The notes beneath the pieces were generated by a model. That model saw only the letters and a list, made by a program, of their open reading frames with translations, was not told the DNA's origin and ran no database searches. DNA of 64,000 bases, taken from positions 868,001-932,000 of the forward strand of contig MCGT01000005.1 of NCBI GenBank assembly GCA_002104935.1. Direction: 5' to 3'. The DNA is from Hesseltinella vesiculosa (lineage: Eukaryota; Mucoromycota; Mucoromycetes; Mucorales; Cunninghamellaceae). Both the position numbers and the translations under genes were made by a program. Shown piece after piece: positions 51,275 to 59,388 of the stretch (the first letter of the stretch is position 1; every line of letters begins with the position of its first letter).

Positions 51275-52024
51275 TTAATCGCATTTGTCATTTACCTCAA
51301 CGCAGCGGCTCTTGTCAGTGCCAACATTACAGCACTTGCCAAGTCGCCCCATTCTCTCGGTACAAATGGCATCGTTATTGCACCTGGTCCCATCGTAAAA
51401 CGCGCATTTTTGCCCCAACCTGGTAACCAAAGGAGGGCAGCAGGAGCCAGACCCTGTCTTGGATGATGGCATATCACCTTCTGCAACGCAATCCCGTCCT
51501 GGTTGCTTCGGCTGGCAGATGCCTGCAATACAGTAATCCCACGTACCAAAACAGTCGAGGATGCTGCCGCACTTTGACCCAGTTTTGCCATAATCTATAC
51601 CATAGTAGAGAAAAAATGAGTGCGTGAAGAAAATGGTGGTGTGACAGGCAAGGCCAAGCACTCACCAGGATCAGGCTCGGGTAGCTCAAATACTGGAGGC
51701 TCACAAGGTTTTCCAGCGATGGTTGGGAATCCATAACAGCATTTCTTGGGGCCACTATTGGGGTTAGGAACTTCGCCTTTGGCAACACATTCATGGCCAG
51801 GTCTTGGAGGTTGGCAAAACCCACCAACACAATCATAAGGGGTGTTCAAACAAGCAGCCATACCACCCAATGTATTCGTGACGCATGGAACATAGCCCCC
51901 TGTCGATTGGGCTCCGACGAGTCCGACGACCATTGCACTCAAAAAATATGCCAGCTATAAATCAATTTCATCAGTACGTCCATCTTTCCTATGATTCTCC
52001 ATAGGATGAGCTCCTTACTTTCAT
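51275..52024 (-). CDS. Secreted cysteine-rich protein with duplicated module
   Basis: Unrecognised secreted protein of about 210 residues. Exon 1 is just ATG AAA (52019-52024) followed by GTAAGG; exon 2 gives MK-LAYFLSAMVVGLVGAQ, a signal peptide. The mature part holds two copies of a Cys module: first CVGGFCQPPRPGHECVAKGEV with a later CC pair, second CIAGICQPKQPGRDCVAEGDM with a CC pair. The C terminus adds more cysteines (CNNDAICTERMG, CCNVG). The second intron (about 51594-51663) separates the modules. Stop TAA 51275-51277. The even spacing of Cys suggests disulfide-bonded repeats, e.g. an effector-like or wall protein; no family named. It shares its split signal-peptide design with the gene at 10427-10871. 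Confidence 0.72.
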
Positions 52025-52772
52025 ATTGGTTAATTCCTTTGCGATTTGCCTTCCTAGCCGCGACTTTATGTGGGTATTTATTTATTTTTTTTTCGGCGCA
52101 AAAATTGTACCCAGCTGCTTTGCCAAGTCAGCCGCGTAAAATCCGGCTCTTTTGCATCCCATCCACAAGACAATAACGAAATTAGACGTGATCTCAAAAG
52201 AACGAAAATCGCCTCTTCCGGTCGATTTTCCTCCTAGCATATGGACTTCGTTATGCATGCTGAGTATTTCTTGAAAGCCGGAAGTAGCTGCACAGCGGCT
52301 CCTTCCGGCTTTTTTGGACACCCTGGATGATGCACTTCTACTTCATTCAGAAGAAAAACAAATGATGGAATGCAGCACACAAATGAGAGAGCTGGTGCTG
52401 GGACCTCGGGAAAAAATGCTCTATTCTCAAAAAAAAAAAAAAGAGTTGTTCGACCTGCGGATGTTTTGAGCGAATGGATCAATATGACAGTTTACTTGTA
52501 TGCCGCTTCTTGTGAGTACATGAATGTCATCTATGCTGAAAGCAGATACTGTTTTTCCAAAATCAAATGTCGCAGATTGTGAAAAATGAAAAAGTCAGCC
52601 ACTACGAAAAAGGACAAATAGGTGAGTGAGAATAAGAACAAACAACCAATGAGTGATTCGCTTACCTTGTTTCATTTTTGTTAGAACCGAGCTTATTTTT
52701 GAGCACTTACTTTTATAAAAGCATCAAATGTTGATATCCACGTTTTGAATGGATGCTATAGAAAAAAAAAAA
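52025..52772. other. Intergenic; 3' flank of Fanzor-like gene and promoter of Cys-rich gene
   Basis: No protein gene seen. Contains the 11-bp hairpin at 52274-52312. For related RuvC nucleases the guide RNA is usually encoded at or just past the 3' end of the nuclease gene, which here is this interval, but no RNA gene can be shown by eye. Confidence 0.5.
52274..52312. repeat. Perfect 11-bp inverted repeat with T run
   Basis: Arms AAAGCCGGAAG (52274-52284) and CTTCCGGCTTT (52302-52312) are exact reverse complements around a 17-nt loop, and the right arm continues into more T (to 52315). It could be an RNA hairpin, a terminator-like element or part of a transposon end. It lies 460 bp past the Fanzor-like stop. 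Confidence 0.85.
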
Positions 52773-55700
52773 TTATGCTTGCGAAGGACGGCCAGGGCGT
52801 TGCCAGGGAAGAGAGCGGGTTTGGGAGGCTTCCCAGGTTGTAAGAATGATTGCCATTGCTGAGGCAGCTAGTCGGTCACGTTCAAAAACTGTTCGACAGG
52901 TTGAACATGACTTCAAAGCAAAGATCCCTTGGCCACCAATACGGAAATTTTCAACACGCTGGTGCTGGCATCCATGCGATACACACATCTAGACCCCCCC
53001 CCAAACAAAAGTAGATGTGAGCAAAATAGGTAGGCAAGCCGCCACTCTTGCATTGGCATACCCGAGAGGTGCGGAATTCATCGATAGAAAAGACAAGGCA
53101 CTTTCCTCTTGCCATGTGCTCCAGTAGGAGTCGACGAATCATCTCCGACGCTCCAGTGATGTGACCTTTGAAGCCCTTGCGATTGACGTTTTGCTTCATT
53201 CCAGAGCCAAACGCAATTGCCGGAACTTTGGTGACACCATCGTTCTTGACTACGCCATGCAAAATCCTTGTGGAATCCTTCATTGGTCTACCAAAGATGT
53301 CAAGCATATAATATAAAATAAAAAAGGCGGTGAACAAAAAAAAAGCCTTTGCTAGGGATGGCTTACAGTGGAGGGGGCCGAGAATCCAATGTATGGATTA
53401 GGTCGCGCTCTAAAGCATTAAGGGACTCCACAGCTATGGGAACCAACGGAGCTTGTAATTGTGAGCGGGCCAGAGATCGTTGAGCTGCCATTGAGGCAAG
53501 CACGTGGATGTGATTCATCAACTTTTTCTTGTAGGCTTTGTTCCTTCGGTTCCTTCGGTTTCGCTTGGTGCGCCATGTCTGTCGTTTGGATTTGTTGTAC
53601 TTCTTTCCTCCAGTCATGAGCACGTTTGCACCAAATGCTGTCGCCCGCTGTTTCCCTCGATAGCCATTGAACCGGTCAACGAGGCTCTGCCGATTGTAGA
53701 ATTCGCAGATGGCGGGTAGATTGGCCAGAATTTTTCTGATGCGCGCAAAATAAACGTCTGGTGATGCTGTCTTGGCTGTCCCGATCGTTGATTCGAATGT
53801 TTGAAACGTCACTGCGTCTGAAGATCCAGGCATGTTGACCCAGGTGTGATTCTTTCGATAGGCCAGTGCTTTCATGCGGCTTGTATGCCCGCTCTGTGCA
53901 TGCAGTTCCTTGGCGGTGACTCGGCGCAAGGGCAATGGGCTTGTATCAAGCACTCGTGCGCCATCATCAGATTCATCAGCATCACTAGGGACACAGGTGC
54001 ACAACCGGCGGCTATGTTGGTCATCCACATTGGCTGGCTTCTTCCCTTGTCGACGCGGTATCAACGATCCAGGGTCTGTGTCAGGCATAGGTATCGGTCC
54101 GATGGCTGTAACTGTGGTTCGTCGCCCAGGGTCAATTGTCGAGAAATTGAAGCGATTTCGCACATCATGATCCATGGGTGCCAGGTCTTCGAGGCGAGCC
54201 TCTTTCATTGGTAAGCCTGAAATGCGACTAAAAGTGAAGTTCACCTCCACACCGTTCGTTGAAATCATCATCAGGGGATCATGCATCAATGGATCGAGCA
54301 AATCTTCGTGTCTGGGAAAAAAAAGTCAGCAACAGTTGCCTTTTGAGAACAGAAAAAAATAAGGTACCGATGGATATCAAAGTGCTCCATGCGAAACAAA
54401 TCAAAATACGTCTTCAGGGACAGGAACGCTGATGGGACAGACAGATCCAAATCACCAGTGCCCTGACGGGCAGTGGGTCTTGCTCGGCTGTGTACGGGAC
54501 TGTAACAGTGAATGTTTTCCGGAACGAGGTCGACGTGGCGTAGTCCCCATGATGGCTGCGGAAGGACGGCAAATGGCTTTGGTAGTGGATGATCCAAGAA
54601 TGGGTGGTTGTCGTACTGTTCCATGGATGCGGTAGCTTCTAAGAGCAATTGGATCGAGTGATGTGGATGTTGTTTAAGATAGCCAGCTGTGATGATTCCC
54701 ACGTACTGAGGCTTGAAGACAAACAACTGCGTAACCAGTGCGTTTCCCAGGTCAGTGTAGGCGGTGATGGTGTGTGGCATATCTTCTGGCCATTCAGCAT
54801 GGTCGAGCACGGCCGTCCAGTCAATGGCAGGATGATACTGTTCAGTCTTCATGGCAAAGTGAATATAAGATTCATCCACGAGCTTGGTCACAATCCACTT
54901 TGGTGGTTGAGTGGGCCACTTTTTTTTTTTTTTTTTTAAAAAAAAAAAGGTTGAGTTAGCCATCCCAGATTCACCCTCAGCATCGCTCTTTTTTAAAGAG
55001 GCCTTACATTTCCACAAAGCATAAGCGCTAGAAATCGGATGTACGACTTGAATTTGGCCTCAAAGTGTTCATTCGTAGATTCGTTGTAGCCGGTTGCCAT
55101 ATGGTCCAAGGCGCATTTGATTGTATTTGCGTCAATAGAACCAGGGGGAGGCGCGAACAGCAGAGACGGGGAACCAGGTTCTGCAGCCAATGCAGCTTGG
55201 AGGGAACCAAAATGGCCAAGGAGTTCGGGTGGGAGCTGCCCTGCAAATCCTCCCACGTTTTGGTCACCACGTAAGAGCATGTATACCTTGTATAGTCCAT
55301 TGCCATTCATGACAGTTCGCACGAGTTGCTGAGGATAGGTCAGGATAAAGTGGTTGACAAACAACCCAACGCGTAGGATGAGCTGACGTAACTGTTGGCT
55401 AGCGTCAGTCACATTTTGTTGAAGAGTCAGCATGTGATCAGGTCGCACGGCAAAGTCAAAAGAGAGTTTTCTTGTATATTCCTCACGATTTGGCAAGACA
55501 TCGTCGTAATACTGCTTTTTCGTTGGCCGCATGTGTGATCTGGGTGTGGCATCAGGGTTGGCAGTTTCAAGCTTGCGTTTTCGACGGCCTTCTTTCTTAT
55601 CTTTTTCAATATTGGCTTGTTCATCACGATTAGCTGACTTGGTGGATGTCGATGCTTAAAAAAAAACCAGAGTGAGCCACTTTCCAGAAGGACACTGGAA

Positions 55701-55837
55701 GGTGCCTTTGGAAACTTACGTCCAGCTTCTTGGTAATGTTCGCAGGCAGCACTCTTTTTTGTAGCGTGACCTTCTCTTCCACAGCTATTACAAAACACTA
55801 GACCTACTCCAACAAAAGCGAAGCATTCATTTTTGCT

Positions 55838-55873
<36 letters not shown>

Positions 55874-56032
55874 AAAACAGAACGTACCTCGTCGGTTGGC
55901 TGCCAATTGAGTCATCAGGATAATTCGATCTGTGGGATCCAGATCCAGGCGATCCATGTTGTCCAAAAGATCTTGCTCAGTATCGTATGTGAATGACGAC
56001 ACTATGTTTGTAAAAAGGTCTTTTGAAATCAT
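52773..56032 (-). CDS. Fanzor/TnpB-like RuvC nuclease, RNA-guided type, intact
   Basis: Eukaryotic TnpB homologue (Fanzor): by family knowledge an RNA-guided DNA endonuclease carried by mobile elements. Seven exons (56032-55888, 55803-55720, 55654-55008, 54918-54368, 54311-53367, 53287-53062, 52988-52773) total 2,814 nt, 937 residues, no internal stop. N terminus: helical leader, CCHC-like knuckle (CNSCGREGH..C, exon 2), then a basic stretch GRRKRK. RuvC-I is STIDPGRRTTVTAIG (Asp about 536); RuvC-II is FSIDEFRTSRMC (Glu about 861, the rearranged position known for Fanzors); RuvC-III is FERDRLAASAMAII (Asp about 904). The zinc site uses CVSHGC and CSTC (868-897). A basic segment RTKRNRRNRRNK lies between RuvC-I and -II. 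The knuckle is not a usual Fanzor feature. Intron 1 has a T33 run. No terminal inverted repeats found by eye. Confidence 0.82.
55840..55872. repeat. T33 homopolymer in Fanzor intron 1
   Basis: The longest homopolymer in the window. On the coding strand it is an A run within the first intron of the Fanzor-like gene. Confidence 0.9.
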
Positions 56033-56327
56033 GATGAAAAGAGGAAAGAAAAGGTCGAAAATGATCAAACTCCTCTCCAAATTTAAAGGGAAAAATCTTT
56101 TGAAACTGCGGTCATTCCATTTTTAAATGAAAACAAGAAATGAACAAGCCTAGCTGTCTTATTGAACAACATATAAACAAGGAATTGTTTTATTTCAGAT
56201 TGTTTTTTATAATAGAGTTGCCACAGAAGAATGGAGGGGGGGGGGGAAGCTTGAGATGGGAGACATGCACACTTTTCAGATCCTTGGAACCTTTCCACAT
56301 TTCCAAGGTCAACCAGGTCGAAAACAG

Positions 56328-56850
56328 GGTGGCATCAGGGTTGGCAGCTTCAAGTTTATATTTTCGACGGTCGGCTTGCTTACCATTTTCAATATTGGCT
56401 TGTTCATCAAAATCAGTTGACCTAGAGGATGGTCGATGATTTTTTTTTTTTTAAAAAAAAAAGTGAGCCGCTTTCAGAAGGACGATGGAAGGTAACTTGG
56501 GAACTTACGTCCAGTTTCAAGATGAAGGTTACAAGCACGACTCTTCTTTGCAGCATGACCATCTCCTCCACAGATATTACAAAACAAGAGAATATCAACA
56601 TCAATAAATGTTTCACTGTTATTAGGAGAATAGCTTACCTGGCCGGCTGGCCACAAATTGAGTCATGAGGATAATTCGATCCGCGGGATCCAGATCCAGG
56701 CGTCCCTTGTAACCCACTAAGTCATGTTCAGTATCATATGTGAACGACGATACTATGCTTGTAAAAAGGTCTTTTGAAATCCATGATGAATGACTGGAAA
56801 GAAACCGGTCGCAAAAGATTAAAGCTCCCTTCCATTTTGGACGGTCGGCA
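56328..56850 (-). pseudogene. Duplicated, broken 5' part of the Fanzor-like gene
   Basis: Diverged copy of the leader and first three exons of the neighbouring Fanzor-like gene, same orientation. Matches: ISKDLFTSIVSSFTYDTEHDL (56780-56720) against ISKDLFTNIVSSFTYDTEQDL; the knuckle CNICGGDGHAAKKSRAC against CNSCGREGHATKKSAAC; and DEQANIENGKQADRRKYKLEAANPDAT split over the third exon. Next to the start codon the copy has one extra base (ATGGATTTC instead of ATGATTTC), which throws the ATG out of frame. Homology stops abruptly after ANPDAT (56328), so the nuclease domain is missing. A tandem duplication followed by deletion, or an insertion remnant, explains this. Confidence 0.8.
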
Positions 56851-56912
56851 CCTGAAACAAAAGGGGATCGCATGAAATCAGGTTCTGACGCCTCTTTTTT
56901 ATTTAAAAACAA

Positions 56913-57216
56913 ATGTCTTTACGTGAGTAATGCATGAGTAAGACTAGTAAGACGTCTAATCTTTCAAACCATAGCAAACAAGCGATCTTCAAGTTTAAAC
57001 CGAAAGAATATCTCATCGAGTGACTGGCCTGAAGGTAAGCATTATATTAAACCAACAAAAAAATCAAGATCCGTTTGTTATTCAATTGGTTCTCAATCCC
57101 AAGAACCAGTTTTCAATGGCAATGATCCTCTTGTAAAAAGCAGGAAGCACTAGATCTTGCTTCCTCCTCCTCTCAGTCATTGCAGCAATTTAACTTTTTT
57201 TTTTCTTTTTAATTCA
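56913..57216. other. Upstream region of the 57.2-kb gene
   Basis: From an ATG at 56931 the plus strand is open for 29 codons (ending KFKPKEYLIE) before a stop. It could be a lost or unspliced first exon; no clean donor in phase was found. Confidence 0.4.
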
Positions 57217-58420
57217 GCCAAGGATATCATTGCCATTCATGGCGATAGTTCAGATGAGGGCGACATTTATAACTTTGAACTGCAGGCCAAGCGTAAGCTC
57301 CGTGTGCCTCGAAAAAGAGAGATCACATGTCCGCATGTAATCTGGATCTCACCGCGCCTGCCTGTCTCGTAGGAAAGAAACGCAAATGTCTCTCTCTCAA
57401 GAAAACTGGTGCCAAGGGTAAGGTGGATTGGAGCAATTTGACAGCAAGGCAGTCTGGTTATCTTTTTTTTTTTTTTTTCACAGAGCCCGACGAAAAAGAA
57501 GCTTTTTCTTTCACAGATCCTGGCGAGAATGATTGGAAGGTTGCCATTCTCATAGATGCTCCTAAGCTATTGGCCAAAGAAAAAGCCGGAGTACTCAAAA
57601 GTAATCATGGTGGACAAAGCTTGAATTGGTCAGAGCATGTTGATGTAGCTAACCAATTTGACTAGCACCCGATATTACCTCTTATCAACAGTCTGTTCGG
57701 GGGGAATGTGGACTGGTTCAAGGTAAGCAACAGAATACAATGACTACGTTTTTGAAGGATAAAATAGATGAGGAAAGAAGCAGCAAGGGCTTGCCATTTT
57801 TTCGTACAAATTCGAAAGTCCTCCAGTCCAGCGGCGGCCCCGCATGTTTGCCTTCCTCACAGAGTAAATGCCATAACCCCACGAAAGCCGAAAAAAAAAT
57901 AAGGCATGGCAAAGTCTAAGTAATATGTTTAGAAGAATCTCTCCCACCACTGAAGCGTTCATGTATACCCTCAGCCAACAATCAAGGTACTTGGTCAATT
58001 TGTCGATTCTGATTTTTTTATACTTCTCATTTCTCTAGCCCTGATGATACAATGACTCGAAAACCCATCCAGATTCAACGCGCCATTCTGAGAAACCTGC
58101 TTCGCCAACACCCAGACAACACTACCCTACTGAATCAAGCCATTAGCCTTGAGGAAACCGATGTCAAGGAGCGGCCAATCGCTATCAGTCTTTTAGTAAA
58201 GCATAGCAGCAATCAAAAATTAAAAAAATGAATGTCCTCTATGCCAAACATCCTCTTACTCAAGACCATAAACAAGTTGGTACCCACCAATGGTTCTTTT
58301 TTATTTTAGAGTGGGTTCTCAAACCGCTTAAAATTTCATATCCATACTCCGCTCCAGCACATCAAGCACAGTAGTGCCTGGTTTTGGTCGATTGAGATTT
58401 TAATTGGTCAGCACTATTAA
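57217..58420 (+). CDS. Unrecognised multi-exon gene, 5' end not found
   Basis: No family recognised. Exons after good acceptors join in frame: KDIIAIHGDSSDEGDIYNFE (from 57217), KKRKCLSLKKTGAKE (57373-57417), then EPDEKEAFSFTDPGENDW up to the GTAATC donor at 57601, then TPDITSYQQSVRGEC from 57666. Later parts: MTTFLKDKIDEERSSKGLPFF, PDDTMTRKPIQIQRAILRNL (58040 on) and, after an intron, SGFSNRLKFHIHTPLQHIKH to a TAA at 58418-58420. Acidic-Ser and Lys-rich pieces suggest a nuclear protein; QNTMTTFL vaguely resembles a PCNA-binding box. Some joins near 57870-58039 are uncertain and no in-frame ATG was found upstream. It may be a real gene or a partly decayed one. Confidence 0.4.
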
Positions 58421-59388
58421 AGTCACCAACGTCGTTCCAAAAGCGGATCGGCATGCGACTTTGTGATTGCGACATGTTTTTGCCGAAAACACTGTAAGTG
58501 CACCTCATGATTCGACAAAAAAGCGTCGTGAGCTGCCTGAATATCCAGCCAATGAAAACGGCGACACACCTTTTTTTTTTTTTCTCGCGTTTCCTTTCCA
58601 TTAACCAGCAAGACAAGAAGTGCATGATCTTAAGAAAAGCCATCCAAGCAAACAAGGAATCAGAAAGGATACGACCTATGCAAACAGAAAAGCAAACATG
58701 TCTTCTAGAGAAAGGCGTCAAGTGGCAGCCAAATGGCCGATCACGAAGCCCATCAAAGAAAACAAGGGCTAATCATGGACAAACAGGCCGATACTTCTGC
58801 ATTCAATGCAAGTCTACCAAGCCATGGCGCTTCCCGTCCCTGTCCATCTCGTCCAAAGCTACCAAACTCGGAAAGCGCTGGCGCCGACTGCTATCCATTG
58901 TGCCAAAGATTGGAAAAATCTTGTGGACGGCGTTTCCTCTGCTTTATCAGCTAAATCTTCACAAATTGCCTCACACGTGCCGGCAAGTAGGGTGTCAATG
59001 TTGGGCAACAAGAAACATGTGAAGGTCTTCGTTTTATTTTATTACGCAGGAGCTGGTACATCATGCTATACCATACGCGCTCTCTCTCTCTATGATCCAG
59101 CGGGTGAACTGAAGCAAGGGCGACTCAACTTGTCAAGTTCAATGAAAAAAAAAAAAAACTAAACCGACATGACTTCTTGTGGTTTTGTGTTTTTGTAGAC
59201 ATTTTATCTATCCATGTACAGGTATCAGTACAGTAAAGTGGCAAGGCAAAAGGAGCCAATGTCAAAAAAGACGACTGGGCAATGATTTTTGTGCAAGCCC
59301 CGCCGGTTCTCTCTTTATTTTTTTTTCTTTCCTTCTTTCTTTTTCGTTCACGCTCTATTAAAGCATTTTATTGTCCCATTTGTGACCT
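58421..59388 (+). other. Exon-like but interrupted sequence, possible gene remnant
   Basis: After a T-rich CAG acceptor (58609) one frame runs RQEVHDLKKSHPSKQGIRKD.. to 58769, meets a single TAA (58770-58772), then continues open to about 59020 (VYQAMALPVPVHLVQSYQ, DWKNLVDGVSSALSAKSSQ). Overlapping frames are also open here, so the true reading is unclear. No domain recognised. Confidence 0.35.

Follow-up and report, generated by a model that had tools for sequence, protein, structure and literature searches.

A very likely Fanzor1-type nuclease gene with an N-terminal zinc knuckle on a repeated mobile element of Hesseltinella vesiculosa

The stretch of Hesseltinella vesiculosa DNA analysed here, 64,000 nucleotides of contig MCGT01000005.1 (positions 868,001 to 932,000; hereafter the window, numbered from its first letter), carries a minus-strand gene in which a first-pass annotation had seen an intact Fanzor-like RNA-guided nuclease, and this gene lies inside a mobile element of 5,946 bp with CAG..CAG ends (52549..58494, minus strand). 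Seven exons running from 56032 down to 52773 join in silico into 2,814 nt, an uninterrupted frame of 937 codons plus the stop, and the six introns (56-89 nt) all begin with GT and end with AG. Exon 1 (55888..56032, with the start codon at 56032), exon 4 (54368..54918) and exon 7 (52773..52988, with the C-terminal zinc site, RuvC-III and the stop) are placed by the splice-joined frame; exon 2 (55720..55803), which holds a zinc knuckle, by the frame and the near-identical copies of the gene; exon 3 (55008..55654), with the basic stretch GRRKRK and a REC-type region, and exon 5 (53367..54311), with the WED-type motif STNG, RuvC-I and a helical arm, by the frame and an alignment of related lineages; and exon 6 (53062..53287), with RuvC-II, by E861, which is invariant in four lineages. 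The open frame of 937 residues proposed at first was borne out, being open also in the near-identical copy C38, and an open 2.8-kb frame over seven exons that is shared with C38 and shows a deficit of nonsynonymous changes is more than chance. An alternative acceptor of intron 1, giving 935 residues, was rejected because its AG is present in the window only and missing from the four other near-identical copies. Long poly-A/T tracts within introns (55846-55876 and 54919-54950) vary in length among copies.

Relatives of the protein were drawn from the window's own genome only (27.05 Mb, 85 contigs). Three lineages were aligned, namely the window, a paralog on C78 (L016, called C78b here) and a C13-type family, with a fragmentary fourth, C2b. 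The C78b paralog is 36% identical to the window protein over residues 298-719 and 42% over the aligned rows, the C13-type family 31% and C2b 34%; the paralog shows a sequence break or an extra stretch at exon junctions 2/3, 3/4, 4/5 and 6/7, junction 5/6 lying outside its coverage. The nuclease motifs stand in the order first claimed, all on the minus strand: RuvC-I STIDPGRRT with D536 (54116..54142), E861 in the RuvC-II motif SIDEFRTSR, the zinc site C868-X4-C873..C894-X2-C897 (52896..52985), and R903-D904, of which D904 (52875..52877) is the RuvC-III catalytic residue. D536, E861, D904 and all four zinc cysteines are invariant in the three aligned lineages, and C2b retains D536 and E861. The RuvC-I motif is DPG in all four lineages, as is required of a Fanzor. 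Exactly six residues separate E861 from C868, the arrangement of the relocated glutamate, and a catalytic glutamate six residues ahead of the zinc finger belongs to the Fanzor signature (PMC10711439). Five residues lie between C897 and R903-D904, within the 5-50 residues expected between a C4 zinc site and RD in Fanzors, and the TDG of the Fanzor1 WED position reads TNG in the window and C78b, CDG in C13 and TDG in C2b.

Profile searches point to the same family. Pfam PF07282 matches all three lineages scanned (best E 1.2e-8) and PHROG 506 'transposase' matches two of the three (best E 9.8e-6). In the PDB, the C-terminal part of the C13-type protein matches LaTranC (E 0.00022) and the TnpB-like protein L79 (E 0.0047), ahead of unrelated zinc proteins. 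When the PDB was searched with family profiles, the sole match was the Guillardia theta Fanzor1 (GtFz1), at E 0.27 with three rows and E 0.011 with four, over the end of exon 3 and the start of exon 4; a second colinear GtFz1 stretch at the zinc site scores below zero with the four-row profile. Motifs, together with profile matches that are weak, place the protein in the family; the DPG motif, the glutamate-zinc spacing, PF07282 and the weak GtFz1 match make a Fanzor1-type nuclease very likely. The earlier suggestion of a complete catalytic set and a possibly active enzyme is likewise supported by the motif order, the conservation of D536, E861 and D904, PF07282 and the GtFz1 match. That the gene is instead an IS607-type Fanzor2, or a bacterial TnpB recently transferred, seems highly improbable to us. 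In its favour are the L79 match of the C13-type protein and a weak match of NCBIfam IS607_TnpB to one of the three lineages (E 0.0039), whereas the 937 residues, the six introns, the inverted repeats, the Fanzor1 identity of the only whole-family PDB match and the want of a recombinase domain in six scanned open reading frames (ORFs) of the element all argue the other way. The C2b piece, which lacks the C-terminal zinc site, gave no relevant PDB match.

The N-terminal CCHC knuckle of the first-pass annotation is present, C53-X2-C56-X4-H61-X7-C69 (55742..55792, minus strand), with all four residues invariant in the three aligned lineages; what needed correcting was its spacing, CX2CX4HX7C, unlike the retroviral CX2CX4HX4C. 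The same spacing occurs in C78b and the C13-type family, and CX2CX4HX6C in a C7 lineage that by eye lies near C2b. Since these lineages carry a knuckle at the same place, the view of it as an unusual fusion private to this protein had to be abandoned, and because it is found in lineages as diverged as 31-42% identity the module is old within this Fanzor clade. Residues 1-146 gave 47 matches in the genome at E<=0.01, many of these being parts of a common locus. The top PDB match of the knuckle was to the HIV-1 nucleocapsid knuckles (E 0.048), too weak to say anything beyond the general type. CCHC knuckles are common binders of single-stranded nucleic acid, and this one may contribute to the binding of guide RNA or of an R-loop. 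The terms 'Fanzor' and 'zinc knuckle' stand together in no paper of the literature searched, a set outside which most subscription papers lie, and on that basis the knuckle is new.

The setting of the gene had been read incompletely at first, the repeated mobile element and an upstream duplicate of the first exons having been overlooked. The limits of the element are those of homology among the window copy (C45) and the copies on C78 and C56, which ends sharply at or next to 58494 and 52549. The left terminal inverted repeat, CAGTGTTTTCGGC..TGTCGCA (58468..58494, minus strand), aligns to the right one, TGCGACATTTGATTTTGGAAAAACAG (52549..52574, minus strand), and similar right ends occur in C34, C22, C78b and C2b. 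The inverted repeat is imperfect; an equal score was reached in 1 of 2000 shuffles and in 4 of 1570 control pairs of the same spacing in the window. The left end of C78b resembles that of the window, none of 2000 shuffles being as good, and the left repeat at up to three mismatches is found elsewhere in the genome only in the C78 and C56 copies. By flank comparison, TA dinucleotides beside the left end (58495..58496) and the right end (52547..52548, where the true end may be a few bases further) are likely a target-site duplication. TA stands on both sides of the window and C78 copies, precedes the left ends of the relatives C50 and C78b, and follows the right end in the window, C78, C56, C38, C22 (last G missing) and C2b, being absent at C34 and C78b; in a query of joined flanks, both window flanks match and share exactly two bases, TA. 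The RuvC-I exon has at least 89 matches in the genome at E<=0.001, in at least 73 places more than 5 kb apart. Five copies are near-identical (the window, C78, C56, C38 and C15), three of the others having 98-99% protein identity to the window. The C15 copy is cut by a contig end before the RuvC-I exon, with its right end missing and its left end shortened, and C38 lacks its left end at a contig edge. The C13-type relatives form a high-copy sister Fanzor family (L047, L048, L051 and some 20 further places), of which one N-terminus was read and is knuckle-bearing.

Two of the five near-identical copies, those of the window and C38, have uninterrupted coding exons. Frameshifts are present in C56 and in C15, which is incomplete besides, and C78 carries an interrupting insert of about 0.3 kb immediately after the RuvC-III aspartate. 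Between the window and C38 there are 9 nonsynonymous and 11 synonymous differences (dN 0.0042, dS 0.0163; binomial p 0.003 for the nonsynonymous deficit), and of the four copy pairs tested among six the others gave p values of 0.006 (window-C78), 0.0008 (C38-C78) and 1e-5 (window-C56). This excess of silent changes, as read from the copies, indicates that selection acted on the protein until recently. The three broken copies would also suit a recently dead element, with a frame intact merely from late insertion, which we regard as doubtful; the uninterrupted frames of the window and C38 and their fewer nonsynonymous changes than expected argue against it, a pattern that points to function until recently but is no argument for expression today. 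The C78 insertion, which lies in the last exon (L009, C78:39946-40235), has by eye the look of a solo long terminal repeat, with TG..CA ends and an apparent 5-bp duplication.

In an end-to-end DNA alignment of the window with C78b the coding exons are 60-67% identical and the 3' untranslated region (UTR) 75% over 210 aligned bases, and local alignment yields a 65-nt block close to the right end with 78% identity, a 27-nt block at and ahead of a donor-like site with 93%, an 83-nt block of coding sequence with 75% and, at the left end, a 62-nt block with 74%. The 3' UTR contains a hairpin region (AGC, a 6-bp hairpin, then GCT; 52720..52757, minus strand), a candidate guide-RNA scaffold with compensatory changes across eight loci. 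Directly after AGC, all six pairs form in six of eight loci (per-locus shuffle p 0.015-0.034), and five of six form in C2 and C45b (p 0.23 and 0.16). On hand-cut arms 95.8% of cells pair, five of nine pairs are changed on both sides and slid controls lose the pairing; this cut, with loops removed where MAFFT had misplaced the arms, favours pairing, so that the per-locus shuffle is the fairer test, and both leave out C33 and C64, whose arms are not alignable. Folded as single sequences, the segments ahead of the donor, 75 nt long except in the window (62), give z of -0.2 to -1.2 in six of eight loci, -2.0 in C33 and -3.8 in C64. Searches of the window with Rfam (gathering scores) and ARAGORN gave 0 matches each. 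The conserved 3' segments might be subterminal sequences bound by a transposase, with no guide RNA made from them, and this we hold to be unlikely. In its favour, conservation between families extends to the left end (the 62 nt shared with C78b), and fragments exist with a left end only or a right end only; against it, the hairpin lies some 170-210 nt inside the right end and its pairing is kept through the two-sided changes seen on the hand-cut arms. A short plus-strand reading frame that begins in the right repeat was dismissed, since by eye it seems to be shifted in relatives.

Between the hairpin and the right end lies a putative intron of 109 nt, GTAAGT..TTTTTCGTAG (52602..52710, minus strand), followed by a putative terminal 3' exon of 53 nt (52549..52601, minus strand) that was delimited by family comparison and reaches the right end; a guide would follow in the flank. 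It is a tentative possibility, as judged from the arrangement of these signals, that the same nuclease uses a spliced guide RNA. The last coding exon would supply the scaffold hairpin from its 3' UTR part and the exon after it the right end and the guide, and the host spliceosome would link the scaffold to this guide, which derives from the DNA beside the element; the guide RNA gene of the knuckle-bearing Fanzor clade in this genome might then, with the same reserve, be split by a spliceosomal intron. One plan fits eight 3' UTRs, with GT..AG signals between scaffold and right end (borders chosen by eye; C45b and C13 are near-identical, so that there are seven loci without C45b): the hairpin region, a donor (GTAAGT, GTAACT, GTAATT, GTAAAA, GTAAGG or GTAAGA), then 70-170 nt that close with a pyrimidine-rich stretch and YAG, the right end lying 2-73 nt further on; the right ends of C10, C33 and C64 were set by eye and not from copy comparison. 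Scored against shuffles, the alignments of the 5' exon, the intron interior and the 3' exon have z values of 4.9, -0.5 and 7.7 for window-C78b and 7.7, 1.1 and 7.8 for window-C2b, so that conservation tracks the exon borders in these pairs; the covariation of the hairpin speaks for the split as well. The pattern of conserved exons and a variable intron is clear for window pairs and mixed elsewhere. Against splicing, the interior is conserved in C33-C64 (1.5, 5.0, 15.8) and slightly in C13-C10 (11.4 for the 5' exon, 2.0 for the interior, the 3' exon being too short), the exons are weakly conserved in C78b-C2b (1.5, -0.3, 2.6), and window-C13 reaches 2.8 in the 5' exon with 0.1 in the interior, its 3' exon again being too short. 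The donor is changed in C22 and the acceptor in C34, both fragments; C34c, one of five further 3' regions, shows nothing comparable to the common plan; signals of the GTRAGT-plus-acceptor kind often arise by chance, 22 of the window's 60 donors having an acceptor-like partner; and the 3' exon overlaps the inverted repeat, which would be conserved for the transposase anyway.

Genome-wide patterns bear on this as well. The motif TTTAATGCTTTTN5GTAA has 26 matches, against 0 for a reversed control, and 21 of them stand about 0.82-0.85 kb behind a RuvC-exon match (compared by hand). The five without one nearby (C4:742053, C17:354716, C23:61263, C26:264134 and C29:149804) are scaffold-and-donor sites that possibly lack the gene, candidates for guide-RNA-only elements like the 'ghost' loci of PMC10432273. 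The right-end pattern TTTTTTCCATAGTGG of the C13-type family, a search that misses copies with G at the last tested base, has 16 matches, 15 of them adjoining a RuvC-exon match; they continue into 16 different sequences, with TGGA in 14 and TGGG in 2. In favour of splicing, C13-type copies end 3-4 bases past a splice-acceptor-like CATAG, so that splicing there would make nearly the whole 3' exon a host-derived guide. Spliced Fanzor guide RNAs appear nowhere among the papers listed from the literature searched (titles and abstract starts, with most subscription papers outside), and on that basis the intron signals are new.

The gene, the element ends, the copies, the conserved catalytic residues and the conserved 3' non-coding region are direct observations. 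From them we consider it highly probable that the locus encodes a Fanzor1-type RNA-guided endonuclease on a probably non-autonomous DNA transposon that has short imperfect inverted repeats and is flanked by TA. The carrier is a repeated eukaryotic element with inverted repeats and six ORFs without a recombinase, as expected of Fanzor1 and not of an IS607 element. Several results weigh against this reading, whose RNA guidance and DNA cleavage are predicted. The PF07282 match of the window protein by itself lies below the curated cut-off (E 0.0016), and this protein alone finds nothing in the PDB at E<=1; structure prediction of exon 5 alone gave a predicted local distance difference test (pLDDT) score of 48 and no confident fold. 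The gap from D536 to T864 is 327 residues, outside the D-X(125,275)-[TS][TS] that was published from the protein set of 2013 (PMC3627910), although the TS itself is present, and because this spacing is not matched by the letter we write 'Fanzor1-type' and not proven member. The inverted repeat of the paralogous C78b element, taken between its own two ends, is not significant (246 of 2000 shuffles as good); the C56 copy has AG instead of TA before its left end and TA only at its right; T follows the right TA in the window, C78, C56, C38 and C2b, so that TA(T) may in part be element sequence and the right end could extend further; and the joined-flank search of the genome, which would have revealed an empty site, matched only the window's own flanks. 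RNA of the window right end folds no better than shuffled sequence, with z about +1 in three stretches and -0.8 in the one that holds the hairpin. Finally, Pfam found no transposase or recombinase in the six element ORFs scanned, RGS (E 0.0024) and DUF6358 (E 0.047) being below cut-off and taken as chance. The genome as a whole contains at least 164 DDE_3 matches, and a non-autonomous element is therefore probable.

With a Fanzor1-type nuclease as the favoured reading, a mechanism may be proposed. The protein would bind an RNA made from its own 3' UTR and the right end of the element, whose last bases, the guide, would come from the DNA just past the TA. Published Fanzor1 guide RNAs originate at the right end, span the inverted repeat and the target duplication and extend some 15 nt into flanking DNA (PMC10711439, PMC10432273), and the window layout fits this, with the candidate scaffold at 52757-52720, the right end at 52549, TA, and then a copy-specific flank. 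The target would be a chromosome with the flank and without the element, an empty site either left by excision or lying on the sister chromatid, and repair from the occupied copy would restore the element. The knuckle and the basic stretch that follows it would most likely provide further contacts with the guide RNA or with single-stranded DNA, and transposition would depend on a transposase acting in trans.

Other features of the element lie upstream of the gene. A diverged tandem duplicate of the exon 1-3 module (56329..56834, minus strand; about 72% identical) holds the start, the knuckle and the basic stretch and is found also in C78, C56, C38 and C15; its start region has extra bases in the window relative to the other copies. 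Open exon-like stretches suggest a possible second, head-to-head gene (56935..58228, plus strand), one stretch of which (60 residues) occurs only in four element copies; its four ORFs had no Pfam match at E<=0.1. The element may be Tc1/mariner-like. A 772-bp Tc1-like repeat (a DDE_3 remnant with inverted ends of about 105 bp; L010, C78:45858-46628, and L016, C78:454422-455190, 94% identical) sits directly against the left ends of two distinct Fanzor elements, whose TA it seems to share; an inverted repeat common to it and the element was rejected for lack of significance, since between 90 and 1984 of 2000 shuffles did as well. Cysteine-rich ORFs that are alike by eye lie near two Fanzor insertions (window 51275-51954 and L010, C78:47014-47619, both minus strand).

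An intact, multi-copy Fanzor1-type nuclease of unusual size and domain make-up would broaden the set of eukaryotic RNA-guided nucleases, and the knuckle common to the Fanzors of this genome is a concrete candidate for an extra nucleic-acid-binding module. A split guide, if true, would couple guide production to splicing, and a spliced guide region would be a way of making guide RNA absent from the literature searched. Since one genome contains many copies with distinct flanks, RNA sequencing could test the spliced-guide reading directly.

Compared with known systems, the window protein resembles GtFz1 (PDB 9cer/9ces/9cet) and SpuFz1 (8GKH) in its DPG RuvC-I, its relocated glutamate and its C4 zinc site followed by RD, and the element resembles those of GtFz1/SpuFz1-type Fanzor1 in being multi-copy, with inverted repeats and a candidate guide region at the 3' end. 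It differs in its length, 937 residues against the usual 600-700 of Fanzor1 (PMC11423790), in the over-long spacing from RuvC-I to the zinc site, in CX4C in the first zinc half, in the intron-like signals of the guide region, and in the N-terminal CCHC knuckle, which is not named in the GtFz1 and SpuFz1 descriptions nor elsewhere in the excerpts of PMC10432273, PMC10711439 and PMC11423790. PpFz1 of Parasitella parasitica (PMC11423790) is likewise a fungal Fanzor1, with a RuvC insertion and a short guide-RNA scaffold; it was not among the PDB matches of the window protein or the family profiles, the presence of its chain in the set searched not being confirmed. Fanzor1 has been known in fungal transposons since 2013 (PMC3627910). 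The MCi-4, ROr-4 and PBl-3 elements of Mucor, Rhizopus and Phycomyces (PMC3627910) are, as here, fungal, transposase-less and bounded by inverted repeats, but make 9-bp MuDR-type duplications in contrast to TA; Mariner-type Fanzor elements described in the same paper share TA with the window element. A further likeness is to IStrons. Some of these carry TnpB. They unite a group I intron with an insertion sequence (IS) element (PMC4227781) and are thus similar in combining an intron with a mobile element, whereas the signals in the window are of spliceosomal type and lie in a eukaryotic 3' UTR.

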